Source of the DNA: Enterococcus haemoperoxidus ATCC BAA-382 | Lineage (GTDB): Bacteria; Bacillota; Bacilli; Lactobacillales; Enterococcaceae | Length of the DNA stretch: 64,000 nucleotides | NCBI RefSeq assembly: GCF_000407165.1 | Contig: NZ_KE136479.1 | Location: 445,464 to 509,463 of the forward strand | Direction of reading: 5' to 3' | Shown here: positions 25,194-43,188 of the stretch, piece by piece | Numbering within the stretch: position 1 is the stretch's first letter | Layout: each line of letters opens with the position of its first letter | Position numbers and translations under genes: made by a program | Notes under the pieces: model-generated | What the model saw: the letters and a program-made list of their open reading frames with translations, nothing else | Database searches by the model: none | Told to the model about the DNA's origin: nothing

Positions 25194-26588
25194 ATGGTAA
25201 CTAAGAATGAATGGAACAATGCAAAGAGAATAATAATTATTATTTTTGATATTTTAGTATTTCATTTTTCCATTTTTGCAGGGTTTTGGCTAAAATTTGG
25301 AATGAATATCCCACAATATAATTTCGTGTCATATGAGCATTCAGTAGTGTATATCACAATTATTTTTGTTTTTTTAAACTTGTTGTTAGGAACATACGTA
25401 TTTTATAATCGAACGGTCAATGACATCGTGTTTGTAACCGTGATAGGCCAAGTGCTGACTATCTTGTCTATTATGATTGTCGGTTTTGTTGGGCGTTGGT
25501 TCTCATTTCCGCGCTCAGTGTTGATTTATTCATTTATTGTTGGAATGATTTTGTTAAGTTTGTATAGAATGTTTATCTATTTTGTATACTTACGCATCAG
25601 TGAAGAAAAACGTGTTGTTATTATAGGATCAGCTAAAAGTACAATATCCGCAACGGCTAACTTTTTAACACACAAAAATAAAAAGCACAAAGTTGTTGAT
25701 GTGATCCAGGCTAATTATTTTGAAAATTTAAAAAAAATCTTATCTAATGTTGACATTGTTTACATAGCAAGTCATATTGATGAAGAAGAGAAGCTAGATA
25801 TATACGAATTAGTTATTGAACATGAAAAGAAATTATTTTTAAATACAAGCTTTGAAAATCTTGTTATGTTAAAACCTAATATGATGAATTTTGAAGATGA
25901 AAGCATCATTGAAGTATCTGATTTTAAAATTAAACCAGAATATGATTTCATAAAACGTTTATTTGATCTTGTAATAGCATTGTTATTATTAGTAATAACG
26001 TCTCCTATTATTTTGATTACAGCGATTTTGGTAAAAGTAACTTCAGCTGGACCTGTTGTTTACAAGCAAACAAGAATTACTTTAGGTCAAAAAGAATTTT
26101 CTATATTAAAATTTAGAACAATGTCAGCTACGGCAGAAGTAAATACTGGGCCAGTCTTGTCTTCAAGTAATGATAGCCGTGTTACGACTGTTGGAAGATA
26201 TTTGAGAGCTCTTAGAATAGATGAATTGCCTCAATTGTTCAATGTTTTAAAGGGTGACATGTCTATAGTTGGACCACGCCCAGAACGTCCTTTTTTTGTA
26301 GATCAATTTAAAGAAGAAAATAAACACTATTACTTAAGACATAATGTACGAGCGGGCATTACTGGATATGCTCAAGTTTATGGGAAATATGCTTCTGACT
26401 ATAATAGTAAATTAAATTTTGATTTACTTTATATCAAAAACTATTCAGTGTTATTAGATATGAAAATATTGTTGCAAACAATTAAGATTCTTTTTGATAA
26501 AATTTCATCAAAAGGTGTTGATGAAGAAGAACAAAGAGAAATTGAAAAAAACTTATTTTCTAAAAACAACATAAAGGTTTGGAATTAG
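25194..26588 (+). CDS. epaR: Undecaprenyl-phosphate sugar phosphotransferase (priming enzyme)
   Basis: A 464-residue polyisoprenyl-phosphate hexose-1-phosphate transferase of the WbaP/EpsE type. Four to five N-terminal helices and a Rossmann-like region (VVIIGSAKSTISA) precede a re-entrant helix (FDLVIALLLLVITSPIILIT). The catalytic core has EFSILKFRTM, RIDELPQLFNVLKGDMSIVG and GPRPERP. It loads the first sugar-phosphate onto undecaprenyl phosphate, starting a second lipid-linked glycan next to the EpaA one. It ends the conserved part of the locus. GAAAGGAA precedes the ATG. Confidence 0.93.
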   Translation: MVTKNEWNNAKRIIIIIFDILVFHFSIFAGFWLKFGMNIPQYNFVSYEHSVVYITIIFVFLNLLLGTYVFYNRTVNDIVFVTVIGQVLTILSIMIVGFVGRWFSFPRSVLIYSFIVGMILLSLYRMFIYFVYLRISEEKRVVIIGSAKSTISATANFLTHKNKKHKVVDVIQANYFENLKKILSNVDIVYIASHIDEEEKLDIYELVIEHEKKLFLNTSFENLVMLKPNMMNFEDESIIEVSDFKIKPEYDFIKRLFDLVIALLLLVITSPIILITAILVKVTSAGPVVYKQTRITLGQKEFSILKFRTMSATAEVNTGPVLSSSNDSRVTTVGRYLRALRIDELPQLFNVLKGDMSIVGPRPERPFFVDQFKEENKHYYLRHNVRAGITGYAQVYGKYASDYNSKLNFDLLYIKNYSVLLDMKILLQTIKILFDKISSKGVDEEEQREIEKNLFSKNNIKVWN

Positions 26589-29639: not shown

Positions 29640-30704
29640 ATGATACCTTATATATTATTATTTGTCAGCCTGATTATTCTTTCACTCCTTGAGTTTTTTA
29701 GCAAAAAGAAAATTTTTTTCATAATTGCAATGATAGAAATCATTTTATTTGCAGGATTGAGATATGAAACGGGTTATGATTATCTATCATATAAAGCTTT
29801 TTTTGAAAGGGTTCGGAGTTTTGGGGATATATTATCAGGTGGTATTGATGCTGAACCGGGTTACTTATTAACAAATTATATTGTAAAAATGTTTGGAATG
29901 GATTTTACAGTGTTCATTTTAATCTATTCTGTAGTGACTTTAGCATTATTAGGTTTGTTTGTTTACAAAAATGTTAGCTACCCAACAATGATTCTAGTGT
30001 ATTATGTTTCTCGTTTTTATTTTGTGAGAGATATGGGGCAAATAAGAGCCTCTCTTGTAGCGATTATATTTCTTTATTGTTTACCGGCAATCAAAGAAAA
30101 GAATTTACCGAAAGTAGTTCTCTTGTCACTTTTAGGAGCATGCTTTCACATTGTTGCGCTATTTATTATACCTGCCTATTTTTTTGTAGGAGTAATAAAA
30201 AAATTAACCTTTCAAAAAGTGTTGATTTTGACAATAATTTCAGCACTCATAGGAGTATTGTTCTTTTTCCCAGATTTATTTTTATGGGCAATTCCATCAA
30301 GATATGCTGGTTATTTTGCAGGTAAGTATATTACTGGGAAGTGGATACTTAATCCTATATTTATTATGCAAATTGGGATTACAATAGCTTCAATACTATT
30401 TGTGAAAGGTAAAAATAAAGAATATAATGATAGTTTTAATACGTTATTGAGCTTATATTTTCTATCTACATTATTTTTAATTGTTTTTGGTCCATTAGCA
30501 ACAGTAGGTGGAAGGATCGGGACAATCTTTGCTACTGCAGAGATCTTAGTAGTACCTCAACTTTTCCGCCATATGTTTAAAAATCAGTATTTGAATTTGG
30601 CCTGTTACTATATATTTTGCGCATTAGTCTTTTACTTGATATTTATTTTATCAAATACTTATCAAGATTTTATTCCGTATCAAACCGTGTACCATGCTTT
30701 GTAA
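29640..30704 (+). CDS. EpsG-family Wzy-like polysaccharide polymerase
   Basis: A 354-residue membrane protein with about ten helices. The family motif AGLRYETGYDYLSYKAFFER lies after the second helix, as in EpsG-type polymerases, and DMGQIRASLVAIIFLY is the second conserved segment. It should polymerise flipped repeat units outside the cell. It follows the Wzz-like gene by 13 bases and the lysozyme gene starts 16 bases after its stop, so the three look co-transcribed. Confidence 0.85.
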   Translation: MIPYILLFVSLIILSLLEFFSKKKIFFIIAMIEIILFAGLRYETGYDYLSYKAFFERVRSFGDILSGGIDAEPGYLLTNYIVKMFGMDFTVFILIYSVVTLALLGLFVYKNVSYPTMILVYYVSRFYFVRDMGQIRASLVAIIFLYCLPAIKEKNLPKVVLLSLLGACFHIVALFIIPAYFFVGVIKKLTFQKVLILTIISALIGVLFFFPDLFLWAIPSRYAGYFAGKYITGKWILNPIFIMQIGITIASILFVKGKNKEYNDSFNTLLSLYFLSTLFLIVFGPLATVGGRIGTIFATAEILVVPQLFRHMFKNQYLNLACYYIFCALVFYLIFILSNTYQDFIPYQTVYHAL

Positions 30705-30720
30705 AAGAAAGGAAGTAACA

Positions 30721-33120
30721 ATGAATAAAAAAACAAATAATAAATATTTAAAAAGCGGCATTATCTTATGTTCAATTGCTTTATTTTCAGGTGTAGGATT
30801 TATTGATGAACGTTACAATGTCTCTGCAGAAGAATCATTAGTTTCGAGTGATAGTAGAACTACTGACGGGAGTTCAACAAGTCAATCTGAACAGACCTCG
30901 CAAAGCACTGCGGCATCTGAAACTAGTGACTCTACTTCTGATAGTACAATTGAGACTTCCGAAAGAAATATTACGGAGGAAAACAATAAAGAGTTAGGTA
31001 ATGCTTCAAAAACAGAAGACGGGGAATATATATTTAACCCTAATGATCGTTCTGATTTAGCAATAACGCTTCGTGCTGCAGCTGAACCTCGTTCACTGAT
31101 TTCTGCAACAGAAGCTAACCGCCCCTCAAAAGATTTTGTGGATATTTCTTCTCATAACGGATCACTATCAGTCGCTGATTTTACTGAGATGAAAAAATAT
31201 GGGATAAGAGGTGTCGTGATTAAGTTAACAGAGTATACGACCTATTTGAATCCAGAGGCGAAAACACAAATTGAGAATGCTAAACGTGCTGGTCTAGTTG
31301 TTTCTGCTTATCATTATAGCTGGTTTACAACAAAAGCTGGGGCTGAACAAGAGGCGGTATATTTTGCACAAAAGGCAGATCAACTTGGCTTGCCTAAAAA
31401 TACATTAATGGTCAATGATGCGGAACAAACTGAGATGACAGCAGGTAACGTTACTGAAAATTCTATTGCATTTCAAAAAAAGTTAAATAGTTTAGGTTTT
31501 TCTCGTGTTGCACATTATTCAATGTTTGACTGGTTCAATCGTAAAATACTTGATGAAGATAAGTTGGGGCCTGGAAATAGTTGGGTAGCAAGCTATCCCT
31601 ACAATCCATTAGCAACGAATCTCTTACATACAGGAAATGCAGCATGGCAATGGAGTTCTGAGCTAACTTTTCCTGGAGTTTCTGGAAGATTTGACATAAA
31701 TGTATCTTATAATAATTTGTTTTTACAAGCAACTGGTGATAATGGTATAAATCTAGCAAATTATCATACTTCTGCTCCAATACAAGTGTATACAACAGAT
31801 AATATTTGGTATTATAATGATATTAATGAATTTTCTGTTAATACTCAAGCTGAAAGATTGCCTAAAGACACAATTTTAGACATTATTTCAATAGAATATA
31901 GTAATAGCGGTTATCCAAGATTAGTGACTAATAAAGGCTATGTTTCGGCAAATAAAATGTATTCTAAACCAACTATCAGTAATATATCTAGTTACGTTAC
32001 CAAACCAGGGAAATATGCGGCGCTAGGAAATATCTGGTATTACAATGATAAAGACAGTTTTACGCAAGAAACCCAAGCTGGGCAAATTGCTAAAAATACT
32101 GTTTTTGAGGTGACGGGTATTGTCTTCAGCAAAACTGGTTATCCAAGATTGGTGACAGATAAAGGCTATGTTTCAGCTAATAAAACCTATGTTAACCAAC
32201 TTGTAGAAAACTATTCGGATTATTATATGACTCCTGGAAAAGTAGTGACAACAACAAATACTTGGCATTATAATAACAAGGATAGTTTTACACAGCAGAC
32301 ACAAGTAGAGCCAATATCCAAAAATACTGTTTTAACAGTAAAAGATATTGCTTATAGTGAAACTGGTTACCCAAGGTTAGTAACTGATAAAGGCTATGTT
32401 TCTGCAAATAAAGGATTTACAACACCTATTGTCAACAATCATTCGGATTATTTTTTAAAGACTGGTAAATTTTTGACGTCACAAAATATCTGGTATTACA
32501 ATGATAAAGATCTTTTTGCTACTGAAACACAAGCAGAACCTTTAGCAAAAGGGACAATGATTGAAGTAAAGGACATCGTATATAGTAAAACAGGTTATCC
32601 AAGATTAGTAACGGATAAAGGGTATGTTTCAGCTAATAAAGCCTATCTATCTGAAGCAATCAGTAATTTGAACAGCTATATTACTGAACCGATAAAAGTT
32701 GTTACGAGAGAAAGTACCTGGTACTACAATAGTAAAGATGAGTTTTCTACTAAAACTCAGGCTGAAAAATTGCCGAAATACACACTACTAGATGTTAAAG
32801 ACATTGTTTACAGTAAAACAGGTTATCCAAGATTAGTAACGGATAAAGGATATGTTTCAGCAAATAAAAACTATACCACTCCAGCAATTAGTAATATTGA
32901 CAGCTATATAACTAAGCCAGGAAAAATGAAAGCTAAAGCAAATATCTGGCACTATAACAATAAAGACAACTTTATGGTTGAAACACAAGTTCAGCAAATA
33001 GCAAAAGGTACCACATTTACAGTAAAAGAAATTGTCTACAGCGAAACTGGTTACCCAAGACTAGTTACAGATAAAGGGTATGTTTCAGCGAATAAGGTAT
33101 ATGTGGAAATAGTAAAATAA
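30721..33120 (+). CDS. Secreted GH25 lysozyme with six DUF5776-like repeats
   Basis: A 799-residue exported muramidase. A signal peptide (cleavage likely after NVSA, residues about 36-39) is followed by a Ser/Thr-rich linker to about residue 90. The GH25 domain at about 138-335 has FVDISSHNG, VIKLTEYTTYLNP and LMVNDAEQ, which supply the catalytic Asp and Glu residues, and AAWQWSSE. From about 349 six repeats follow, each with WYYN, the TQAE segment and GYPRLVTDKGYVSANK; they probably bind the wall or its glycan. The start is ATG 30721 behind AAAGGAAG. A muramidase inside a polysaccharide cluster may open peptidoglycan for polymer attachment or be a bacteriolysin; both are inference. Confidence 0.9.
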   Translation: MNKKTNNKYLKSGIILCSIALFSGVGFIDERYNVSAEESLVSSDSRTTDGSSTSQSEQTSQSTAASETSDSTSDSTIETSERNITEENNKELGNASKTEDGEYIFNPNDRSDLAITLRAAAEPRSLISATEANRPSKDFVDISSHNGSLSVADFTEMKKYGIRGVVIKLTEYTTYLNPEAKTQIENAKRAGLVVSAYHYSWFTTKAGAEQEAVYFAQKADQLGLPKNTLMVNDAEQTEMTAGNVTENSIAFQKKLNSLGFSRVAHYSMFDWFNRKILDEDKLGPGNSWVASYPYNPLATNLLHTGNAAWQWSSELTFPGVSGRFDINVSYNNLFLQATGDNGINLANYHTSAPIQVYTTDNIWYYNDINEFSVNTQAERLPKDTILDIISIEYSNSGYPRLVTNKGYVSANKMYSKPTISNISSYVTKPGKYAALGNIWYYNDKDSFTQETQAGQIAKNTVFEVTGIVFSKTGYPRLVTDKGYVSANKTYVNQLVENYSDYYMTPGKVVTTTNTWHYNNKDSFTQQTQVEPISKNTVLTVKDIAYSETGYPRLVTDKGYVSANKGFTTPIVNNHSDYFLKTGKFLTSQNIWYYNDKDLFATETQAEPLAKGTMIEVKDIVYSKTGYPRLVTDKGYVSANKAYLSEAISNLNSYITEPIKVVTRESTWYYNSKDEFSTKTQAEKLPKYTLLDVKDIVYSKTGYPRLVTDKGYVSANKNYTTPAISNIDSYITKPGKMKAKANIWHYNNKDNFMVETQVQQIAKGTTFTVKEIVYSETGYPRLVTDKGYVSANKVYVEIVK
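31765..33117 (+). repeat. Six in-frame tandem repeats of exactly 228 bp
   Basis: The codon for the Gly of the GYVSANK motif recurs at 31936, 32164, 32392, 32620, 32848 and 33076, an exact 228-base (76-codon) period. Repeats differ at many silent and coding positions, so they are old but have been kept in register without indels. Confidence 0.9.
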
Positions 33121-33163
33121 ATAGTTTAACTATCAAAAAATCAAGACAAGTTGGTGTATCTAA

Positions 33164-34600
33164 GTGAAAAAAGTATTGAGTAATATATTTTTTACGGCTA
33201 TGTATCAAGTAGTAATATTGATTGTTCCACTAGTAACGATGCCGTATGTGTCAAGAATATTCGGAACAGAATTGCTTGGTATTAATTCATTTGTTATTTC
33301 AATTGTTGGTTTTTTGAACATGATCATCTTAATGGGGATGAGCCAGTTAGGTACGAGAGAAATAGCTAAAGCGGATAAGAAGGATCGAGGCACAGTTTTT
33401 TTCCAATTATGGTTTATCCAATTGGCAAGTGGTTTGATTGTAACGAGTCTCTATTTATTGATTGTTTCAATATTTGTTGGGAGCAAAGGCGTTTATTATA
33501 TTCAAATTCCTTACTTGATTGCTTATGTTTTAGATATTTCTTGGTACTTCCTTGGTATTGGTGAAGTAAAAAAAGTAATTGTTAGGAACACGATCGTTAA
33601 ATTTGGCTCTTTGATTTTGGTATTTCTACTTGTAAAGAGCAGTTCTGATTTACTATTGTATATGGGAATCAATAGTATTAGTACTTTTTTAGCAAATATC
33701 TTCTTTTGGATAAGCTTACTTACAGAATTTAAAACGTATGGAAAAATAAAAAAATCATTTTCTTTTCCTTATTTGAAACAAGCATTGTTTTTGCTTATCC
33801 CGTTATTTGCGATTCAAGTGTATAATACCTTTGATAAAACATTAGTAGGATTGTTATCAACAAAGACAGAGCTTTCTTTTTATGATCAATCTCAGAAAAT
33901 TGTTCGAATTGTGTTATCAATCGTTACATCAATCAGCTTAGTTATGATGCCTTTGATGGCTAAAGTGGATACAGGAGATAGCGAAGACAGTTCTAAGCTA
34001 CAGTTATTGTTGAAAAAATCTGTTGAGTATACAACATTAATCTCCCTATTACTGACGGTTTTACTAATGTGTAATTCTCGTGATTTTGTTCAGTGGTTTT
34101 TTGGAAATGAATTTATTCCAATGACCTATAATATGATATTTGTTAGTTTGATTATTGCACCAAATGCATTTGGTGGTGTTTTAGCGAATCAATTTACTTT
34201 AGCAAAAGGTTTGTTGAAGCATTATTCGATACCCTTTATTGCTGGTGCTGTAATAGATGTTATCTTAAATCTTATATTAGTACCAAAATGGGGAGCAAAT
34301 GGCGGGACCATTGCGTTGATTGTTACCGAGTTTTTTGTTTGTATTTTTAGAGTCTATGTTATTCGTAAATGGTTAGATATTAAAGATATTTGTTCTGAGT
34401 TTTTTAAATATATTGTTATATTCGCGTTAGTTTTAGTGTTAGGATTTTTAATTCCTAACTTTGTAGCATCGTTGTTCTTGAATATGCTTATTCGTTCAAG
34501 TATAGTGTTTATTGTATTTCTTATTTTGATTTTTCTTTTTCAGACAAATATATCTGAGGACTTTAAGGTTCTTTTAAATAAGGCGAAAAAGAAAACTTAA
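33164..34600 (+). CDS. Wzx-type oligosaccharide flippase
   Basis: A 478-residue MOP-superfamily transporter with about fourteen helices. MYQVVILIVPLVTMPYVSRI is the canonical first helix and ILMGMSQLGTREIAKA the conserved loop after helix 2. It should flip the undecaprenyl-linked repeat unit primed by EpaR. The start is GTG 33164; no good ribosome site is visible, only GACAAG further upstream. It provides an export route separate from the EpaLM ABC transporter. Confidence 0.92.
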   Translation: MKKVLSNIFFTAMYQVVILIVPLVTMPYVSRIFGTELLGINSFVISIVGFLNMIILMGMSQLGTREIAKADKKDRGTVFFQLWFIQLASGLIVTSLYLLIVSIFVGSKGVYYIQIPYLIAYVLDISWYFLGIGEVKKVIVRNTIVKFGSLILVFLLVKSSSDLLLYMGINSISTFLANIFFWISLLTEFKTYGKIKKSFSFPYLKQALFLLIPLFAIQVYNTFDKTLVGLLSTKTELSFYDQSQKIVRIVLSIVTSISLVMMPLMAKVDTGDSEDSSKLQLLLKKSVEYTTLISLLLTVLLMCNSRDFVQWFFGNEFIPMTYNMIFVSLIIAPNAFGGVLANQFTLAKGLLKHYSIPFIAGAVIDVILNLILVPKWGANGGTIALIVTEFFVCIFRVYVIRKWLDIKDICSEFFKYIVIFALVLVLGFLIPNFVASLFLNMLIRSSIVFIVFLILIFLFQTNISEDFKVLLNKAKKKT

Positions 34601-34625
34601 ATAGACATAACTTGGAGGGTTACTT

Positions 34626-35486
34626 TTGAAATCAGATAGTGTTGTAAAACAACTGCAAAAAAAAGAATTGGAAATATTAAAATTTGTGGATAAATTTTGT
34701 CAAACACAAGACATTCCATACTTTTTATCAGCAGGAACTTTGTTAGGTGCGATTCGCCATAAGGGGTTCATACCTTGGGATGATGATATTGATTTAGGTA
34801 TGACGAGGGAAAATTATGAGCGTTTTGTAAAATTGATTCCAGAAGCTTTAGAAAATACGGAATATATGCTACAAACGTATCAAACAGATGCCGGTTACCC
34901 ATTACCATTTTTGAAAATCATTAATTTGAATACTACTTTAGTTGAAAATAATGCTAAAAATGGAAATGCTCAAAATGGTGTTTTTATTGATATTTTTCCA
35001 TTTGATGTAGTACCTGATAACAGGTTTTTAAGATGGATCCAAATTAAAAAATGCAAAATGCTAACATTTGTAATCCATACGAGAATGAATTATTATACCC
35101 GTGCTCAAACACCACTAGGTGGAATAATTTATAATATGCTAAATCTTTTATGGGGAAGGTATTCTGTAAGGGGGCTTCTTGACAAACGACAAAAAGAAAT
35201 TGAAAAATATAACCATTCGAATAATCGAAATATGTCGATTGTCACTGCTACAACGGAATTTAAGACAGAAACTTTAGATAAATTAGAGATAAATGATGTA
35301 ATTAAAATACCTTTTGAAGATGGTATGTTTTTAGCAAATTCAAACTATGAACAAATGCTGGAACAATCTTATGGAGATTATATGAAGTTTCCTCCTGTAG
35401 AAGAACGAGGAACAAAACATGATATTGTTTATTTAGAAATGGATGATTTTGAGTTTGGAGATCGAACATATAAAAAGAAAAAATAA
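34626..35486 (+). CDS. LicD-family phosphotransferase
   Basis: A 286-residue member of the LicD/fukutin nucleotidyltransferase-like family. The core SAGTLLGAIRHKGFIPWDDD followed by IDLGM is complete, including the Asp cluster that binds metal. LicD enzymes move phosphocholine or a similar group from its CDP-activated form to glycan hydroxyls. The next gene encodes a CDP-activating domain, which supports that role here. The start is TTG 34626 behind GGAGGG. No membrane segment is present, so the glycan is modified on the cytoplasmic side. Confidence 0.9.
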   Translation: MKSDSVVKQLQKKELEILKFVDKFCQTQDIPYFLSAGTLLGAIRHKGFIPWDDDIDLGMTRENYERFVKLIPEALENTEYMLQTYQTDAGYPLPFLKIINLNTTLVENNAKNGNAQNGVFIDIFPFDVVPDNRFLRWIQIKKCKMLTFVIHTRMNYYTRAQTPLGGIIYNMLNLLWGRYSVRGLLDKRQKEIEKYNHSNNRNMSIVTATTEFKTETLDKLEINDVIKIPFEDGMFLANSNYEQMLEQSYGDYMKFPPVEERGTKHDIVYLEMDDFEFGDRTYKKKK

Positions 35487-35517
35487 TCGTATTGAACAAG
35501 ATCATAGGAGGGATAAC

Positions 35518-37335
35518 ATGCAAGGTCTCATTTTAGCTGCTGGATTAGGAAGCAGAATGAAAGAGTACACAAAAAGTACAACCAAAAGTATGGTTGAAGT
35601 TAATGGAAAGTCATTAATAGAAAGAATGCTACGCCAATTAGATAATCTGGATTTAGAAAGAATCGTGATTGTAGATGGTTATAAATATGATGTAATGGAA
35701 GAGTATGTCAAATCAATCCAAATCAAGACTCCAGTCGTATTTGTAACAAACCATGATTATGATAAAACAAACAATATTTATTCCGTTTATCTGGCTAAAG
35801 AATTAATGTGTCAGGAAGATACGATTTTACTAGAATCAGACTTGATTTTTGCAGATCAGCTTCTTGATGAAGTCTTAGCTTCTGATTTTAAAAATCTAGC
35901 AGTTGTATCAAAATTCGAATCTTGGATGGATGGTACTGTTGTAAAAATGGATGAAAACAGTAACATTACGGACTTCATTGATAAGAAACGTTTTAATTTT
36001 AATGAAACAAGAAGCTACTACAAAACGGTTAATATTTACAAATTTAGTAAAGAATTTTCAGAATCTATTTATTTTCCATTTTTAGAAGCTCAAATGAGTG
36101 CCTTTGGGAAAGACGAGTATTATGAGACTACGTTAAAAACAATTACTCAGTTTGATGCTACTTTGGTTAAAGCCTTAGACATTGAAGATGTTCCTTGGTA
36201 TGAAATTGACGATTTACAAGATTTAGATGTTGCTAGCTCTCTTTTTAATACGACTCCATCCAAAAAATTAGATGCCTTTCAACAAAGATATGGTGGTTAC
36301 TGGAGATATCCCAAAGTAATTGATTTTTGTTATTTGGTGAATCCGTTTTATCCGCCTAAAAGAATGGTTGATGAGATGAAATCAAACATGGAACGCTTGA
36401 TTATTGATTATCCTTCTGGCCTTAAAGTGAATTCATCATTAGTAGCAAAATTTTATAACGTTCCAGAAAAGCATGTAGTAGTAGGAAATGGTGCTGCAGA
36501 ATTGATTAAGTCTTTGATGGAAAAAAATGGCGGGAAATATGGGATTATTGCACCTACTTTTGAGGAATATCCAAATCGCCTAACGAAAGACCAAATTGTT
36601 AAATATTACCCTAAAGATAAAAATTTCCAATATACTGCAAATGATATCATGGCTTTTTATTCAGAAAATCCAATTGATTATTTAGTTTTAATCAATCCAG
36701 ATAATCCTACTGGGAATTATATTCCAAAATCAGATGTGATCACATTATTAGAGTGGGCAAAGGCACATGAAATAACTATAATATTGGATGAATCGTTTAA
36801 TGATTTTGTTGATTTTGAAGAGGTAGCATCTTTAATTGATCGAGAAATCTTGATGCAACATCCTAATTTAATTATTATAAAAAGTATCTCCAAATCATTT
36901 GGAGTTCCAGGTGTACGTCTAGGCTTCTTGATGACGAGTGATGAATCATTAGTCAGTTATATTAAATCAGATGTTTCAATTTGGAATATTAACTCATTTG
37001 GAGAGTTCTTCTTACAAATTTTTGAAAAATATAAAAAAGATTATCTATCAGCATTAGATTTATTTTATAAGATCCGTAAAGATTTCCATTCTGCAATGGC
37101 TGATGTATCAGATTTTGAAGTAATCGATTCACAAGCTAACTATTTTACTTGTCGTCTTACTGGCAAAGTGAGTGCTCGAGAATTGGCTACAATTCTATTA
37201 GATCAAGACAAAATCTTTATCAAGGACTTATCTGGAAAAGATGGTTTTGAGGGAGAATACGTAAGAATTGCAGTGAAGAAAAGTGATGAAAACAAAAAAA
37301 TTATTGAAGCTTTAAAACGGATATTGAATTACTAG
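35518..37335 (+). CDS. Fusion: LicC/PntC-like cytidylyltransferase + CobD/HisC-like PLP enzyme
   Basis: A 605-residue two-domain enzyme. Residues 1-240 form a nucleotidyltransferase: LILAAGLGSRMKEYTKSTTK, NHDYDKTNNIYSVYLAKEL (a LicC signature), LLESDLIF and WYEIDDLQDLDVA. Residues 255-605 form a fold-type I PLP enzyme; YGGYWRYPKVIDFCYLVNPF recalls the HGG...DFS.N.NP start of CobD and HisC. D424 (ILDES) and the Schiff-base lysine K459 in SISKSFGVPGVRLGF are present. CobD relatives decarboxylate threonine- or serine-phosphate; HisC relatives transaminate. I favour decarboxylation of phosphoserine to phosphoethanolamine followed by CDP activation. ATG 35518 has GGAGGG 6 bases upstream. Confidence 0.85.
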   Translation: MQGLILAAGLGSRMKEYTKSTTKSMVEVNGKSLIERMLRQLDNLDLERIVIVDGYKYDVMEEYVKSIQIKTPVVFVTNHDYDKTNNIYSVYLAKELMCQEDTILLESDLIFADQLLDEVLASDFKNLAVVSKFESWMDGTVVKMDENSNITDFIDKKRFNFNETRSYYKTVNIYKFSKEFSESIYFPFLEAQMSAFGKDEYYETTLKTITQFDATLVKALDIEDVPWYEIDDLQDLDVASSLFNTTPSKKLDAFQQRYGGYWRYPKVIDFCYLVNPFYPPKRMVDEMKSNMERLIIDYPSGLKVNSSLVAKFYNVPEKHVVVGNGAAELIKSLMEKNGGKYGIIAPTFEEYPNRLTKDQIVKYYPKDKNFQYTANDIMAFYSENPIDYLVLINPDNPTGNYIPKSDVITLLEWAKAHEITIILDESFNDFVDFEEVASLIDREILMQHPNLIIIKSISKSFGVPGVRLGFLMTSDESLVSYIKSDVSIWNINSFGEFFLQIFEKYKKDYLSALDLFYKIRKDFHSAMADVSDFEVIDSQANYFTCRLTGKVSARELATILLDQDKIFIKDLSGKDGFEGEYVRIAVKKSDENKKIIEALKRILNY

Positions 37336-37365
37336 AAAGTAGATCTATAAAGGAGAACTGAAATC

Positions 37366-38418
37366 ATGGTTTTATTGTTACCTATGCAAACTAGCTATTT
37401 GAATACTAGTGGACATATTTACGACTCAGAATTCATCAATTTAGTCCAACTCTCACAAGGAAGTGTTAAATTTGATGAACGAACTTTATTTTTAAATCAA
37501 GAAGAGAAGGATTTTTTGAATGGTCAAAAAATTGTTGAGATCTCTGATTCTATTGTTGTTTTTAAAAACAAAGAGAAATGGGGATTAATCGCTAATCTAC
37601 CAAAAGAGGAGTACATCAAAGGCAACGTTAAAAGTCATGAATTGGTTCTTCCTTCAACGGTTCAAGGAATGCTCAGTAATTTTCACGGATATAACGGTGA
37701 AGCAGCTCCAGTTTTATTAGGACACGAAAGTTTTATTGATTTAGAGATTTTTGTTAAAGTAAATGAACCAGATAAACGGCATGCAGTTAACGATTACGAA
37801 TTGTTTATTTATCAAGGGGAAAAGGCTGCAAAACTTCTTTCACAGTATCAGGAATTGGACCAGCTGTTTATCGGTGATGGGCATCATAGATTGTATACAA
37901 CCTCCTTGTCAAAATTTAAACAAACTGTTTTTGCTTGTGTCATGAGTTTTGATTACTTGGATATCTTACCAATCCATCGTTTATTGGGAGAAGTATCTGA
38001 TGAGATGTATTTACATGCCTTAAATTTTTTAAGTAAGAAATTTGAATTAGAAAAAGTAACGGCTGATTCAGTTTTGCCTAAAGGACATGTTAGAATGTCA
38101 AGAGGGCGTGATCACTATTTGATTCGTTTAATTGATTTAGCATCTGATGCTTTTTGGAATAATGATATTTATCGATTAAACACTCAAATCATTTCCCAAG
38201 CTTTTCGTAGTTTTGATCAAGCAGAGATTCAATATATATCAGAAGAAATGCTGAAAAATTCCGAATCATTTTCTGAACAAGATGTTATACTTGAAACGCA
38301 CGCACTTTCTAAAAAAGAATTTATTGAAGCTGCTAAAAACGATACGGTTTTACCACCAAAATCGACTTGGGTTTATCCGAAGTTTCCTTCTTTTTTACTT
38401 ATGAACAAATATCAATAA
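37366..38418 (+). CDS. DUF1015 family protein, SerK-like candidate kinase
   Basis: A 350-residue protein with DUF1015 hallmarks: NVKSHELVLPSTVQGMLSNF (conserved HE), IGDGHHRLYTTSL with D171-G172-H173-H174-R175, and VMSFDYLDILPIHRLLGEV. It is shorter at the N-terminus than the usual 400 or so residues. Some relatives with the ParB/SerK fold are, as I recall, free-serine kinases. Wedged between the CDP-activating fusion and an opine dehydrogenase, a role in making O-phosphoserine for this cassette is attractive. The function is inferred, not shown. AAGGAG precedes the ATG. Confidence 0.75.
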   Translation: MVLLLPMQTSYLNTSGHIYDSEFINLVQLSQGSVKFDERTLFLNQEEKDFLNGQKIVEISDSIVVFKNKEKWGLIANLPKEEYIKGNVKSHELVLPSTVQGMLSNFHGYNGEAAPVLLGHESFIDLEIFVKVNEPDKRHAVNDYELFIYQGEKAAKLLSQYQELDQLFIGDGHHRLYTTSLSKFKQTVFACVMSFDYLDILPIHRLLGEVSDEMYLHALNFLSKKFELEKVTADSVLPKGHVRMSRGRDHYLIRLIDLASDAFWNNDIYRLNTQIISQAFRSFDQAEIQYISEEMLKNSESFSEQDVILETHALSKKEFIEAAKNDTVLPPKSTWVYPKFPSFLLMNKYQ

Positions 38419-38433
38419 TTTGGAGGTAAAATC

Positions 38434-39552
38434 ATGAAAATTTGTATTGTTGGCTTTGGAAATATTGGAAGTGCATTAGCTGGGATGCTTTCTTTAGGCG
38501 GCCATGATGTTCGCGTATTTACGTCTGTACATTTAGGGCATAATTGTCCATTTACGTTAAATGAAATGGGTTCAGCTAAGGAAATGAGGACTTCAATTAA
38601 TTTAGTTACGAATGATTTAGGCGTTGCTGTTAAAGATGTGGACATGATTATCGTTACTTACCCATCTTTTATGTTGGAGTCATTTGTTAAAAATGTTTCA
38701 GTATTTCTAACAAAACCAATTCTTTTTGGTGTTGTTCCAGGAAGTGGTGGAGCTGAGTATATAACTAATCAAGTGTTTACACAAAAGCATGTAATTTTTG
38801 GTTTAGACAGGGTTCCTTATATTGCTCGATTAATTGAAAAAAATCATTCAGTTGAGTTTTCCAAGAAAGAGTCTGTCAATGTAGCTGTAATCCCCGAAAA
38901 AGAAACAGTTACTGTCGCAAAAATTTTGGAAGATCTCTTACAATTACCAGTCTATCCGTTGAAAAATTATTTAGAAGTCTCTTTGACGCCTTCTAATGCG
39001 ATTTTACACACTTCTAGAATATATAGTATGTTCAAAGAATATAATTCAAACATCACTTATACCAGAGTTCCTTATTTCTACAGAGATTGGACTTTGGATT
39101 CATCTGAAAGTTTGATTGCTTTAGATAAAGAGCTAAGAAGTATCATTTTAAGTATGAAAGAATTAGAATTGTCAGAAATTAAAACGATTCGCGAGCATTA
39201 TGAGTCAGAATCAGTTGATGCAATGACGGAAAAAATAAGAAGTATTTCTTCTTTTAAAAATATTCCGTCACCCATGAAAAAAGTATCAGATAAAAAATTT
39301 GTTCCAGATTTTTTGTCTAGATATTTCATAGAAGATATTCCGTTTGGTCTATTGATTATTAAAGGATTTGCTCTAATCACGGGGGTAGATACTCCAGAAG
39401 CTGATCAAATTATTTTATGGAGTCAAAAATGGCTAGATAAGGAATACTTAATTGATGGTGGGAAACCAGGGTGTGATTTTTTGTTGTCAGGCGTTCCTCA
39501 GGCATACGGAATTGATACACTAGAAGAAATGTATCGTTTTTACAAATCTTGA
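38434..39552 (+). CDS. Octopine/opine dehydrogenase family protein
   Basis: A 372-residue oxidoreductase. An N-terminal Rossmann fold (MKICIVGFGNIGSALAGML) binds NAD(P). The C-terminal helical domain carries N188 and H192 in PSNAILHTSRIY, matching the N-x3-H active site of N-(1-carboxyethyl)amino-acid dehydrogenases. These join an amine to a 2-oxo acid by reductive condensation. The amine may be a product of the neighbouring PLP enzyme. AGGAGG lies before the ATG, 16 bases after the DUF1015 gene. Substrate unknown. Confidence 0.82.
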   Translation: MKICIVGFGNIGSALAGMLSLGGHDVRVFTSVHLGHNCPFTLNEMGSAKEMRTSINLVTNDLGVAVKDVDMIIVTYPSFMLESFVKNVSVFLTKPILFGVVPGSGGAEYITNQVFTQKHVIFGLDRVPYIARLIEKNHSVEFSKKESVNVAVIPEKETVTVAKILEDLLQLPVYPLKNYLEVSLTPSNAILHTSRIYSMFKEYNSNITYTRVPYFYRDWTLDSSESLIALDKELRSIILSMKELELSEIKTIREHYESESVDAMTEKIRSISSFKNIPSPMKKVSDKKFVPDFLSRYFIEDIPFGLLIIKGFALITGVDTPEADQIILWSQKWLDKEYLIDGGKPGCDFLLSGVPQAYGIDTLEEMYRFYKS

Positions 39553-39619
39553 TGACTTAATAAGAGTATCTAGATAGAAAAATTATTTTGAGTAAATGAG
39601 TAGAAATGGAAGTGTGATT

Positions 39620-40570
39620 ATGAACAATATACTTATAACGGGTGGAGCTGGATTCATAGGATCTGCGCTAGCTAATTATTACTGTAAAAATCATAATATT
39701 ATTGTTGTTGATGACTTGTCTATGGGCAATGAGAAAAACCTAATTAAGTCAAAGAACATTACTCTTATAAAAGGGAGTGTAACGGATCAACAGTTAATGG
39801 CACAGTTATTAGAAACTCAGCAGTTTGACTATATTTTTCATTTAGCAGCTATCGCAAGTGTTGCTGATTCAGTTCAAAGGCCTCTTGAGACACATCATGT
39901 AAATTTTGATAGTGTATTGTATTTGTTGGAACTAGTCAAAAAACAGACAGGTTTAAAACGTTTGTTATTTACATCGTCGGCAGCTGTCTATGGAGACGAA
40001 CCAACTTTACCAAAACAAGAAGAGTCCGTTATTAGGCCATTGACGCCTTATGCTATCGATAAATTTTCTGCTGAGAAATATGTAGTTGATTATTGTCATT
40101 TATACGGTGTACCAACAAGTGCAGTTAGATTTTTTAATGTGTATGGTCCAAATCAAAATCCTAATTCCCCTTATTCAGGAGTTATTTCAATTATAATGGA
40201 TTGCTATAAACAGCTTTTGAAAAATAATAATACTTCTTTTACCATGTTTGGTGATGGGAATCAGTCAAGAGATTTTATATATATTGATGACGTGATTAAA
40301 GCATTAGATTTGATTGTAAGCTCTGATGAAGCTTTAGCAGAAGTTTATAATGTTGGAACTGGTAACAGTGTTACCTTGAATAACTTAATCAGTATAATTG
40401 GTGAATCGTTAAATAAAGATTTATCAATAAATTATGAGAATGAACGTGATGGTGATATACGAGAGTCTTTAGCAGATATATCTAAAATTAAAAGTATTGG
40501 TTTTCAACCTGAATTTGATATTAAAAAAGGCCTTCGAAAATATATTAAACATGAACTAAATTTAGATTGA
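39620..40570 (+). CDS. NAD-dependent nucleotide-sugar epimerase/dehydratase
   Basis: A 316-residue extended [20 protein letters not shown] binds NAD; Ser in FTSSAAVYGDEP and Tyr/Lys in TPYAIDKFSAEKY form the catalytic set. FFNVYGPNQNPNSPYSGVIS resembles WbpP/GalE-type UDP-sugar 4-epimerases, so a UDP-GlcNAc or UDP-Glc 4-epimerase is most likely. I chose ATG 39620 with GGAAG 7 bases upstream, not the in-frame ATG at 39596. It probably supplies a donor for the decoration cluster. Confidence 0.88.
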   Translation: MNNILITGGAGFIGSALANYYCKNHNIIVVDDLSMGNEKNLIKSKNITLIKGSVTDQQLMAQLLETQQFDYIFHLAAIASVADSVQRPLETHHVNFDSVLYLLELVKKQTGLKRLLFTSSAAVYGDEPTLPKQEESVIRPLTPYAIDKFSAEKYVVDYCHLYGVPTSAVRFFNVYGPNQNPNSPYSGVISIIMDCYKQLLKNNNTSFTMFGDGNQSRDFIYIDDVIKALDLIVSSDEALAEVYNVGTGNSVTLNNLISIIGESLNKDLSINYENERDGDIRESLADISKIKSIGFQPEFDIKKGLRKYIKHELNLD

Positions 40571-40740
40571 TTTTTTCGTTTCTGTTGATTTAGTTCCTTT
40601 CAAAGTTATTATCTTAAAATTTAGTACAAAAATACGGATATAAAAAGTTTTGAAGGATATTTTTTATCTTTAGCGTTAAATTCATTATGCTTATATTGAT
40701 TTATATATTAAGTATTATGAGAGAATAAAGGAGAATGTTT

Positions 40741-42306
40741 ATGGATTTGAAAAATAAACAAATTAAGGAGCAATACGAGCATAATAGAACTATTAAATTT
40801 ATATCCCTACTACTAATTTTTTTTAGTTTTGTTATAGTAGTTTTTAGTTTTCGCTCTAATCCATTTTCCCACTTGTTGAATGGGCATGACTCATCAATGT
40901 TTATCTATTTTGGAAGAGGAATAAAGGATGGATTTGTTCCTTATAATGATATGTTTGATCATAAAGGAATATTTTTATTTATATTTCAATATCTGGGGAT
41001 TGTATTAGGTTTTGGTAATGATTCATTAGGTATCTGGATTTTAGAATGTTTATTTTATGGACTATCATTAATATATATTTATAAAATACTAATGTACTTT
41101 ATTAAAGACACAATCGTATCAAGTACTACAATTGTTTTGTATACTGGTATTATCTTATCTTCGTTCGATTTTGGTAATTATTCCGAAGAATTTGCTTTAC
41201 CGTTTATTACAATATCATTATATCTTTTTGCAAAAATTTGGTTGGAAACTACTAACAGTTCCTGGAATCTTTTCTTTATAGGAATTTGTGGAGGAATTAC
41301 TTTCTTTATTCGACCTAATATGATTGCTTTGTGGATAGTTTTCTGTTTATTGCTTTTGATAAGGAATGTTTTTAAAAAGGAATATTCAGTTTTACGTAAA
41401 CAAATTTTATACATCTTTATGGGCGGTATGCTTATTTGTTTGACAGTTTTAGTCTATAGTTTAATTAATGAGAATTTAAAAGAAATGGTTTATCAAACTT
41501 TTATATTAAATGTTCAATATTCGTCATCTTCCGTTGGTGAAAAAATACTTACAGCAAAATCATTTTTTCAATTTATGACAGATTATGGAATTTTGGCATT
41601 CATGTTTCCTTTTATTACACTATTGATAGTTAACCCTCAAAACTTACAAAAAAAGTTTCGAGTATTTTATGTAATCTTATTTATCTATTTATTGGTTAAT
41701 TTTTTTACAGTTATTATGTCTGGTAGATTCTACACTCATTACTTTATAACTATGTTTCCCGGACTGATTTTGGCCACTGGAATCGGTTTTGATTGGTGCT
41801 TACGCCAATTTGATTTGGCGTTAAATAAAAAAATTATTTGCATTTTATTATTGTTTGTGTTGACGCTTAGCCATTCAGAAAGTGCTTTTAAGGACTATGT
41901 TAAACAAACTAATAATAACATTCCTAACGAAAAAATAGATTCTTTGGTAGCTAAAGAAGCCGAGTATATTAAAATGCATTCAACTAAGTCCGATAGAATT
42001 TATGTTCATAATATTAGTGCTAGTATATATAATATAAGTGATCGGTATTCTAATTCAAAATTTTTTAAATTACCTTCTTTGGATTATTTGAAATTTCGTA
42101 ATTTAAAGGAAGAATTTACGGATAAATTATATGAAAATCCACCTAAATTTATTGTTGTTGGTAGACAAACATACTTAAATAAAGAAACACTGACAGATAC
42201 TAAATTGGATAAAACTGTTGTTACTGCTGTGAAGGAAAACTACCAAGTAATTCCTGAATATGAAGAGACAGATTATATGGTTTTTCAATTAAAAAGCTCT
42301 AATTAA
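40741..42306 (+). CDS. Multi-pass membrane protein, GT39/ArnT-like glycosyltransferase
   Basis: A 521-residue protein with about ten helices and a soluble C-terminal part from about residue 390. The first outer loop, LNGHDSSMFIYFGRGIKDGF followed by VPYNDMFDHKG, has the acidic residue and layout of GT-C enzymes that take sugars from undecaprenyl phosphate. The acceptor may be the exported polymer. ATG 40741 has AAGGAG 7 bases upstream; the ATG at 40735 is too close to it. A terminator follows. It is the last gene of the variable cluster. Confidence 0.75.
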   Translation: MDLKNKQIKEQYEHNRTIKFISLLLIFFSFVIVVFSFRSNPFSHLLNGHDSSMFIYFGRGIKDGFVPYNDMFDHKGIFLFIFQYLGIVLGFGNDSLGIWILECLFYGLSLIYIYKILMYFIKDTIVSSTTIVLYTGIILSSFDFGNYSEEFALPFITISLYLFAKIWLETTNSSWNLFFIGICGGITFFIRPNMIALWIVFCLLLLIRNVFKKEYSVLRKQILYIFMGGMLICLTVLVYSLINENLKEMVYQTFILNVQYSSSSVGEKILTAKSFFQFMTDYGILAFMFPFITLLIVNPQNLQKKFRVFYVILFIYLLVNFFTVIMSGRFYTHYFITMFPGLILATGIGFDWCLRQFDLALNKKIICILLLFVLTLSHSESAFKDYVKQTNNNIPNEKIDSLVAKEAEYIKMHSTKSDRIYVHNISASIYNISDRYSNSKFFKLPSLDYLKFRNLKEEFTDKLYENPPKFIVVGRQTYLNKETLTDTKLDKTVVTAVKENYQVIPEYEETDYMVFQLKSSN

Positions 42307-42343
42307 ATAAGAAGAAGTGAATAATTAAAATAGCATATTGTAT

Positions 42344-42373
42344 AAGGCGAGATAAGTGATTCTCGTCTTTTTT
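42344..42373 (+). terminator. Terminator closing the polysaccharide cluster
   Basis: AAGGCGAGA (42344-42352) pairs with TCTCGTCTT (42361-42369) around an 8-base loop with one G-U pair; a T-run follows to 42373. Confidence 0.8.
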
Positions 42374-42397
42374 GAAATAAATGAATCTTTCAATTGT

Positions 42398-42426
42398 TTG
42401 ATACTCATTGTTAGTAATGCTACAAT
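42398..42426 (+). promoter_or_regulatory. Promoter of gdpD-miaA-hflX
   Basis: TTGATA (42398-42403) and TACAAT (42421-42426) are spaced 17 bases, ending 21 bases before the gdpD ATG. Confidence 0.65.
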
Positions 42427-42447
42427 ATCTTCAATTGGAGGTAACTT

Positions 42448-43188
42448 ATGACAAAAATAATCGCCCACCGAGGCAGCAAAGGAACCCATCCAGAAAATAC
42501 CTTAGCAGCATTTAAAGAAGCTGTTCGTGTTGGTTCTGATGGGATCGAGTTAGATGTTCAGCTATCAAAAGATAACCATCTAATCGTGCTTCATGATGAA
42601 ACAATCGATCGTACCACGAATGGTCATGGAGATGTTGGCAGTCTAACATTATCAGAGTTAAAACAATTCGATGCCGGTAGTTGGTTTGAAAAAAATCCAA
42701 TGGTTCAAGAAGTCCCAACTTTAGAAGAAGTGGTAATGTTACTAAAAAAAGAGAACTTTCAAGGATTGTTGAATATTGAGATTAAAACAGACAAAATCCA
42801 TTATGAAGGAATCGAAAAGATTATTGTTCAGCTCATGAAGTCGCAGCGTTGGTCTTTTGATTATATGTATTCGAGTTTTTATTTTAAAAGTTTGGAAAAA
42901 ATATGGGATATAGAAAAAAATCATAATATTGCTTCAGTATTTGGTATGTCAGAAGAAGATGAAAAACATGCACTTCAATCAGTGTTTATTGAAGGTATCC
43001 ATCCTAAAATTGATTGGGTGTTGGACCATTTAGATGATTTGGCAGATTTTCCAAAAGCAATTCGTCCTTGGACTGTCAATGAGGAAGAAAAGATGAAACT
43101 TTGCTTTAGTTATCACTTGGCAGGAATTCACACAGACTATCCAGCTAAAGCATTGCAAATACGCAAATTGATACAAAATAAAGGATGA
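42448..43188 (+). CDS. Glycerophosphodiester phosphodiesterase (GdpD/UgpQ type)
   Basis: A 246-residue TIM-barrel enzyme. IIAHRGSKGTHPENTLAAF carries the first catalytic His, ELDVQLSKDNHLIVLHDETI the metal-binding Glu/Asp and second His. No signal peptide is present, so it acts in the cytoplasm, cleaving glycerophosphodiesters from lipid or teichoic acid turnover to glycerol-3-phosphate. GGAGG precedes the ATG. Its stop overlaps the miaA start (ATGA). The last strand, IRPWTVNEEEKM, is typical. Confidence 0.93.
   Translation: MTKIIAHRGSKGTHPENTLAAFKEAVRVGSDGIELDVQLSKDNHLIVLHDETIDRTTNGHGDVGSLTLSELKQFDAGSWFEKNPMVQEVPTLEEVVMLLKKENFQGLLNIEIKTDKIHYEGIEKIIVQLMKSQRWSFDYMYSSFYFKSLEKIWDIEKNHNIASVFGMSEEDEKHALQSVFIEGIHPKIDWVLDHLDDLADFPKAIRPWTVNEEEKMKLCFSYHLAGIHTDYPAKALQIRKLIQNKG

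Follow-up and report, generated by a model that had tools for sequence, protein, structure and literature searches.

A four-gene cassette in Enterococcus haemoperoxidus as a candidate source of serine-derived phospho-amine for wall polysaccharide decoration

The described systems closest to our subject, a four-gene cassette in a 64,000-nucleotide stretch of Enterococcus haemoperoxidus ATCC BAA-382 (contig NZ_KE136479.1, positions 445,464 to 509,463; hereafter the window), come from the synthesis of cobamides, of a phosphonate antibiotic and of surface glycans. CobD and SMUL_1544 stand alone and serve cobamide synthesis; they share a pyridoxal phosphate (PLP) domain and its conserved positions with the C half of one cassette protein, in which that domain is fused to a cytidylyltransferase. 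The C-terminal domain of FrbH likewise depends on PLP. FrbH, as described in parts of PMC6697681 and PMC8976061, carries an N-terminal cytidylyltransferase and a C-terminal decarboxylase in one chain, and, compared by description rather than by sequence, it resembles our fusion in being a single polypeptide whose decarboxylase acts on an amino acid bearing a phosphorus group. Unlike the fusion, FrbH acts on 2-amino-4-phosphonobutyrate on the way to a small phosphonate antibiotic (FR-900098), whereas the neighbours of the fusion are LicD and wall-glycan genes, and phosphoenolpyruvate (PEP) mutase was not found in its genome. The Lic (LicC/LicD) and Pnt (PntC) systems have in common with the cassette a phospho- or phosphono-amine activated with cytidine triphosphate (CTP) for a surface glycan, and a nucleotidyltransferase domain that can be aligned. 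In Lic, however, choline is taken up and phosphorylated, and Pnt needs a PEP mutase (passages of PMC6697681); in the cassette, it is apparently the fused PLP domain that forms the amine, with serine as the source.

An earlier note on this DNA had described four tightly spaced genes in one direction. They are indeed there, at 34626-39552, separated by gaps of 31, 30 and 15 nt, and read in this order:

34626 to 35486, + strand: LicD-family phosphotransferase (PF04991)
35518 to 37335, + strand: cytidylyltransferase/CobD-like PLP fusion, 605 aa (6pd1 and 1jyk for the N half; 6oux and TIGR01140 for the C half)
37366 to 38418, + strand: divergent short DUF1015 protein (PF06245)
38434 to 39552, + strand: octopine-dehydrogenase-like enzyme, here ODH (PF02317, PDB 3c7a)

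The family calls of that note also stood. LicD matches PF04991 across all 227 profile positions (1-227; 166.8 bits, 1e-48), the DUF1015 protein, with its DGHHR motif, matches PF06245 (45.1 bits, 8e-12, gathering score 25.8), and ODH has an NAD-binding N domain together with PF02317 (99.7 bits, 2.1e-28) and matches 3c7a over residues 2-366 (8.6e-35). A ribosome-site-like sequence precedes all four starts, including the TTG start of LicD, which follows TTGGAGGG. The longest open reading frame (ORF) of the fusion spans 35443-37335; ATG 35518 is preferred as its start because M1-Q2 is conserved in at least 95% of 80 aligned fusions (the window's included) and a GGAGGG site is present. Scanning 33000-42500 gave no terminator-like site on the + strand between the four genes, and the five such sites found in that interval, one of them inside the ODH gene at 38536, are at chance level (3.1 expected). 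Compared with three relatives in the genus, the ratio of nonsynonymous to synonymous change (dN/dS) is 0.071-0.139 for LicD, 0.017-0.047 for the fusion, 0.085-0.112 for DUF1015 and 0.115-0.156 for ODH. Purifying selection thus acts on the set, which is no chance reading. A chance grouping of the four genes is ruled out by these ratios, by the complete set in three other genomes of the genus, and by co-occurrence elsewhere.

We consider it about evenly poised whether the four genes form one unit that supplies a serine-derived phospho-amine and attaches it to the decoration of the enterococcal polysaccharide antigen (EPA). The DUF1015 protein would first phosphorylate free L-serine to O-phospho-L-serine. 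The PLP domain of the fusion would then decarboxylate the phosphoserine unit and the cytidylyltransferase would add cytidine monophosphate (CMP) from CTP, yielding cytidine diphosphate (CDP)-ethanolamine; by analogy with FrbH, cytidylyl transfer may precede decarboxylation. ODH would next condense the freed primary amine with a 2-oxoacid, most likely pyruvate, using NAD(P)H, to give an N-(1-carboxyalkyl)ethanolamine head group, a step that must follow decarboxylation because PLP requires a primary amine. In the last step, LicD would take the phospho-amine off CMP and place it on a sugar of the lipid-linked repeat unit. Export of this unit and its joining to the wall rhamnan would fall to the Wzx flippase, an EpsG-like polymerase and the EPA machinery. 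This serine-to-CDP-ethanolamine interpretation is the most economical one, and the survey described below strengthened it.

The fusion consists of a cytidylyltransferase (about aa 1-245) and a CobD/phosphoserine-decarboxylase-like PLP domain (about aa 255-604), each with its catalytic lysine (K23 and K459) in one FrbH-like chain. Its N half matches nucleotidyltransferases, the best solved match being PntC (6pd1) and the next LicC (1jyk). R13 and K23 align with Arg15 and Lys25 of PntC, and E106 with Glu104, which contacts the amine (roles given in passages of PMC6697681); LicC carries Asp where the fusion has E106. Of the PntC signature GXG(T/S)RX4-8PK, the fusion has TK in place of PK, and the equivalent of Glu196 is uncertain in the alignment. 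K459 is the PLP lysine by alignment, and at least 95% of the 80 aligned fusions conserve R13, K23, E106 and K459, and likewise R467, K569, K574 and R583. The best PDB match of the C half, 6oux (9.2e-47), is entered as threonine phosphate decarboxylase-like; we take it to be the phosphoserine decarboxylase SMUL_1544. Of 20 phage records, the 10 listed match in the PLP domain alone, at 22-28% identity.

The best evidence for tailoring of the amine comes from a survey of fusion loci. From a pattern-based scan covering 84,980 species, with one genome each, 95 relatives emerged; the survey rests on 80 of their loci. The locus counts exclude the window's own copy (L082), and L001, from E. crotali, is apparently the same contig as in the genus genome G003, both having a length of 319,296. 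Distances within 6 kb run from gene midpoint to fusion midpoint, and since flanks are unequal, absences are upper limits. ODH lies near the fusion in 19 of the 80 loci and an unrelated gene of imine-reductase type (OCD/mu-crystallin, here OCD) in 12, with no locus holding both (one-sided Fisher p = 0.029, relatedness disregarded). They directly adjoin the fusion, on its strand, in 16/80 and 11/80 loci, and the strict orders fusion-ODH-LicD and fusion-OCD-LicD occur in eight and six. Three pairs of loci differ by an exchange of the two, and domain scans of the six exchanged genes confirm both families. In L006 and L007 the fusions share 91% identity and the run of genes that begins with LicD 80-94%, but what stands between fusion and LicD is OCD in the former and ODH in the latter; farther upstream, five L006 genes are without counterpart in L007. 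In the Akkermansia loci L029 and L045 the exchange lies beside fusions 89% identical, with five other shared genes at 84-94%. L043 and L048 (fusions 87% identical) show it too, with little else in common. In the first two pairs the exchanged gene sits between conserved immediate neighbours.

On a fusion tree, a quick build with long branches in which the join of the window with L039 is to be read with caution, at least nine switches of ODH/OCD state are needed for 31 rows, and OCD loci show hardly any clustering (10 changes for that label, a number as low in 57 of 500 shuffles). The OCD proteins of L009 and L057 match models of enzymes related by imine reduction (SbnB, pyrroline-carboxylate reductase and alanine dehydrogenase), all below cut-off. 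Both families are able to join an amine and a 2-oxoacid reductively. Because they repeatedly replace each other in this slot, we propose that the slot serves N-carboxyalkylation of the CDP-ethanolamine amine and predict an N-(1-carboxyalkyl) tailoring role for the ODH of the window. The suggestion of such a modification in the earlier note thus gained support from the exchange, with substrate and product still read from sequence. By the stereochemistry familiar for such enzymes, ODH and OCD may perhaps give opposite stereoisomers (R and S), or else different 2-oxoacid adducts.

For the first step we predict that the cassette DUF1015 protein is a SerK-like enzyme supplying O-phospho-L-serine. 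It retains HE, DGHHR and PPKSTW, and gene context points to phosphoserine: a canonical DUF1015 gene on a second contig of the same genome closes a serC-serA-DUF1015 series with abutting or overlapping ends (L086:3975-7498), an arrangement that hints at a SerK- or phosphatase-like function of the family as a whole. Bacteroides finegoldii has the order serC-oxidoreductase-DUF1015. Among 30 DUF1015 loci (of 61 listed matches, own genome included, with flanks reaching about 1.5 kb past the match where contigs allow), a serA-like gene is present in eight and serC in three. In the phylum, 119 genomes were sampled, and 59 of them have DUF1015. A profile of 27 DUF1015 proteins found 1vk1 as its top PDB match (E 0.028, below usual significance), and a smaller profile again placed it first (E 0.24); the DGHHR region and the C-terminal PKST region align with it collinearly. 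We take 1vk1 to be PF0380. Three sequences named 'Free serine kinase' (5x0b, 5x0e and 5x0j) were among the ten hits of the 27-member profile at E about 0.5, with unrelated proteins at similar values. PF0380 is a homologue of TK0378 (SerK) according to a passage of PMC5120207.

The earlier note had inferred a route from serine to a phospho-amine here. The position of DUF1015 genes beside serC and serA and, weakly, their likeness to SerK lend the idea partial support, while each chemical step stays at the level of prediction. Several findings weigh against it. Every substrate and product of the four proteins is deduced, and as a sequence match the SerK link of DUF1015 is weak. Passages of PMC5120207 state that clear-cut SerK homologues were not found in bacteria, and in PMC12704722, as far as its passages go, a SerK-like protein bound CTP, not ATP. 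The cassette protein is divergent (17-24% identity to 26 others in our alignment), its predicted structure is poor (mean pLDDT 45.9), and no other genome among the 398 sampled from the phylum holds a close relative of it, three having weak matches at 26-27% identity. The short flanks of 22 of the 30 DUF1015 loci are without serA or serC, and DUF1015 is near the fusion in only four of the 80 fusion loci (L001, L032, L039 and L076). In the PLP domain, the position of K569 is arginine in CobD and 6oux, and substrate binding may therefore differ. CobD-like domains are moreover not confined to phosphoserine: threonine phosphate is a substrate of some, and a phosphonate is that of FrbH. Lastly, neither ODH nor OCD lies within 6 kb of the fusion in 49 of 80 loci, some of them perhaps explained by contig ends.

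The short and divergent form of the cassette protein also fits a reading of step 1 alone in which DUF1015 is not a kinase and instead senses or consumes phosphoserine; the canonical copy is the last gene of an operon for serine synthesis, which on balance calls for phosphate to be taken off phosphoserine. We regard this as rather unlikely, given that the window protein keeps HE, DGHHR and PPKST under a dN/dS of 0.085-0.112 and that a DUF1015 protein 40% identical to it follows the fusion of Fusobacterium vincentii (L083). The serine kinase role stays our preferred first step.

For step 3 alone, plain CDP-ethanolamine might be the final donor, with ODH and OCD serving some other substrate that happens to belong to the locus, such as an amino acid or the amine of a nucleotide sugar. 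The 49 loci in which neither is near the fusion are as this would have it. The idea is unlikely in the light of the 16 ODH and 11 OCD genes that directly adjoin the fusion on the same strand and are exchanged there, between conserved neighbours in two locus pairs, and we retain tailoring of the CDP-linked amine.

Less likely again is that the fusion uses O-phospho-L-threonine to make CDP-1-amino-2-propanol, a CobD-like activity moved to glycans. The best NCBIfam model of the PLP domain is indeed CobD, the threonine-phosphate decarboxylase (TIGR01140), but the 168.6 bits scored fall short of its cut-off of 290.55, and among solved proteins 6oux, not Salmonella CobD, comes closest. The gene context of DUF1015 is serine biosynthesis, and SerK phosphorylates serine and not threonine in the account given in part of PMC5120207. 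Phosphoserine remains the substrate that we favour.

A phosphonate version, in which the PLP domain would decarboxylate phosphonoalanine to give CMP-2-aminoethylphosphonate as in pnt clusters, we hold to be very improbable: the N domain does resemble PntC, a 2-aminoethylphosphonate cytidylyltransferase, more than any other solved protein, and a PEP mutase is near the fusion in three of 80 loci, but no PEP mutase was found in the genome of the window by PF13714, NCBIfam or the Ppm motif (its sole PF13714 match lacks that motif and hits nothing in NCBIfam at 1e-10), both nearby PEP mutases that were scanned have a cytidylyltransferase domain of their own, and DUF1015 points to phosphoserine. The motif is not infallible, as a Bradyrhizobium PEP mutase passes TIGR02320 without it. 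The reading is disfavoured on these grounds for this genome; a phosphonate cousin of the serine-based pathway probably exists, since on two rhizobial plasmids an annotated PEP mutase (in one case the Bradyrhizobium enzyme just named) is accompanied by an unfused nucleotidyltransferase, a CDP-alcohol transferase and a PLP protein of CobD type, on one of them with an ODH as well. The scanned mutases, fused to cytidylyltransferase domains, lie near CobD-like fusions at L021:16079-18136 and L069:10827-12146, where phosphonate and phosphate heads may coexist. Two distant but full-length fusions of about 32% identity were seen on plasmids: one in Erwinia beside a CDP-alcohol transferase gene, and one on Priestia megaterium pBM700 (L085:5992-9638) near annotated 1-deoxy-D-xylulose 5-phosphate reductoisomerase and ATP-grasp genes, possibly an FR-900098-like antibiotic cluster with self-resistance.

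Beyond the window, we advance with some doubt a wider reading: a hitherto undescribed pathway spread over several phyla, plus one Methanobrevibacter metagenome-assembled genome (MAG), in which the fused enzyme would make CDP-ethanolamine from O-phosphoserine without phospholipids and the amine would be diversified in a one-gene slot holding interchangeable ODH or OCD, the enterococcal unit replacing the CDP-ribitol module of EPA. As part of it, methyl- and formyltransferases beside other fusions would yield further variants of the amine. The titles of fusion-bearing records name Clostridia, Bacteroidales, Akkermansia, Spirochaetaceae and the Methanobrevibacter MAG. Within 6 kb of the 80 fusions lie LicD in 32 loci, sulfatase-type membrane proteins in 24, TagF-like proteins in 21 and a methyltransferase group in 10, the last three labels resting on one scanned representative each. 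All four cassette genes stand within about 5 kb, in another order, in L076 (a Faecalimonas MAG), where LicD is matched only weakly and in part (28.8 bits); fusion, DUF1015 and LicD occur together in F. vincentii, in the order formyltransferase-fusion-DUF1015 with LicD about 2 kb upstream. The neighbourhood survey proposed in the earlier note thus did turn up co-occurrence, and DUF1015 beside the fusion in L032, L039 and L076 amounts to three changes on the fusion tree. In F. vincentii the gene with the formyltransferase domain runs into the beginning of the fusion gene (L083:6225-8833), and an N-formyl variant of the tailoring is possible there. In the Methanobrevibacter thaueri MAG (L022; contamination possible) a methyltransferase-like gene lies directly upstream of the fusion, with LicD before that.

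As for the lipids, the earlier note had the amine made without them. Independence by necessity was dropped: the same genome has psd with a pssA-like neighbour (a CDP-alcohol transferase-like gene, judged by eye, adjoins psd at L088:643-2139), and the organism may make phosphatidylethanolamine. What is proposed is therefore only the directness of the route.

Closer to home, the fusion is present in four of 22 genomes of the genus sample, in two of 295 order-wide and in three of 398 phylum-wide (own genome counted throughout); the last two figures come from stricter cut-offs and from scoring only a few first-look candidates in each genome, and are perhaps underestimates. The slot upstream of miaA was compared in 13 of the 21 other genus genomes, three with the fusion and ten without, one (L127) over only 2.8 kb. 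All three fusion-bearing slots (L131, L132 and L137) hold the complete LicD-fusion-DUF1015-ODH set. Four of the ten others (L126, L129, L130 and L135) hold LicD and a 234-aa protein; in the two where that protein was scanned it matches IspD/ribitol-5-phosphate cytidylyltransferase models, below cut-off in L129 and above the IspD cut-off in L135. Judged by this gene content, the unit of the window would take the place of a CDP-ribitol-type module of EPA. In L137 (G003) the Wzy-like and GH25 genes are each split into two ORFs and may be interrupted in that assembly.

That the cassette belongs to Epa decoration, as the earlier note had it, agrees with its position in the variable decoration region of the epa locus. 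It is flanked by a Wzx flippase gene and an epimerase-like gene. Upstream lie a TagO-type transferase (PF00953), ABC transporter genes, a sugar-initiating transferase and genes matching the families of four dTDP-rhamnose enzymes, and we assign the locus to epa because these give the epa layout, for which the reference is the E. faecalis V583 model (PMC7188991, in the part describing it). The other genes of the module that bear on the cassette are:

25194 to 26588, + strand: initiating bacterial sugar transferase of the decoration module (PF02397, 1.3e-64)
29640 to 30704, + strand: EpsG-family (Wzy-like) polymerase of the decoration module (PF14897, 1.7e-47)
33164 to 34600, + strand: Wzx-type flippase of the decoration module (PF01943, 3.5e-23)
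39620 to 40570 (alternative start 39596), + strand: NAD-dependent epimerase/dehydratase downstream of the cassette, probably for nucleotide-sugar supply (PF01370, 1.1e-60)

The decoration module also contains a GH25 lysozyme-like protein with six DUF5776 repeats (30694-33120).

Should the proposal be right, surface glycans would have a source of CDP-ethanolamine that starts from serine and bypasses lipids; DUF1015, which Pfam names only as unknown, would gain a suggested role, and the origin of N-carboxyalkyl-ethanolamine phosphate a possible genetic explanation. Between loci that are close relatives, the swap of ODH for OCD has the look of a simple genetic switch acting on surface charge and stereochemistry, with possible relevance to phage binding and immune recognition.

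The variable epa region of E. faecalis V583, like the window, has LicD proteins and a CDP-activated donor; unlike the window, it is modelled with CDP-ribitol (both in passages of PMC7188991). In some archaea serK lies near genes for 3-phosphoglycerate dehydrogenase and an aminotransferase, as a passage of PMC5120207 reports. At 242 aa, SerK is shorter than DUF1015 proteins (350-420 aa), which it matches in sequence below usual significance, and SbnI is grouped with it as a free serine kinase. The substituent that we predict for the cassette, N-[(R)-1-carboxyethyl]ethanolamine phosphate, presumably belongs to P. mirabilis O14. The glossary of PMC9630907 lists it, as does a figure legend there that deals with K. 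pneumoniae capsules and P. mirabilis O-polysaccharides. The passages found in a paper on Proteus O-antigen genes (PMC5560731) do not name a gene for N-carboxyethyl-ethanolamine phosphate. A distant ODH match (24%) occurs in two Proteus records that are filed as plasmids yet have the size of chromosomes; in the one inspected, the matched region carries no annotation. In the plasmid collection, NZ_CP084075.1 and NZ_OL790811.1/NZ_OL790812.1 (2.1 and 4.1 Mb) look like chromosomes by size. We found no paper describing this gene set in the open literature, where no search combined all four family names. The earlier note's claim of novelty was too strong, because the FrbH design, the LicC/LicD logic and the predicted substituent are already known; what is new here is the gene set and its exchangeable amine-tailoring slot.

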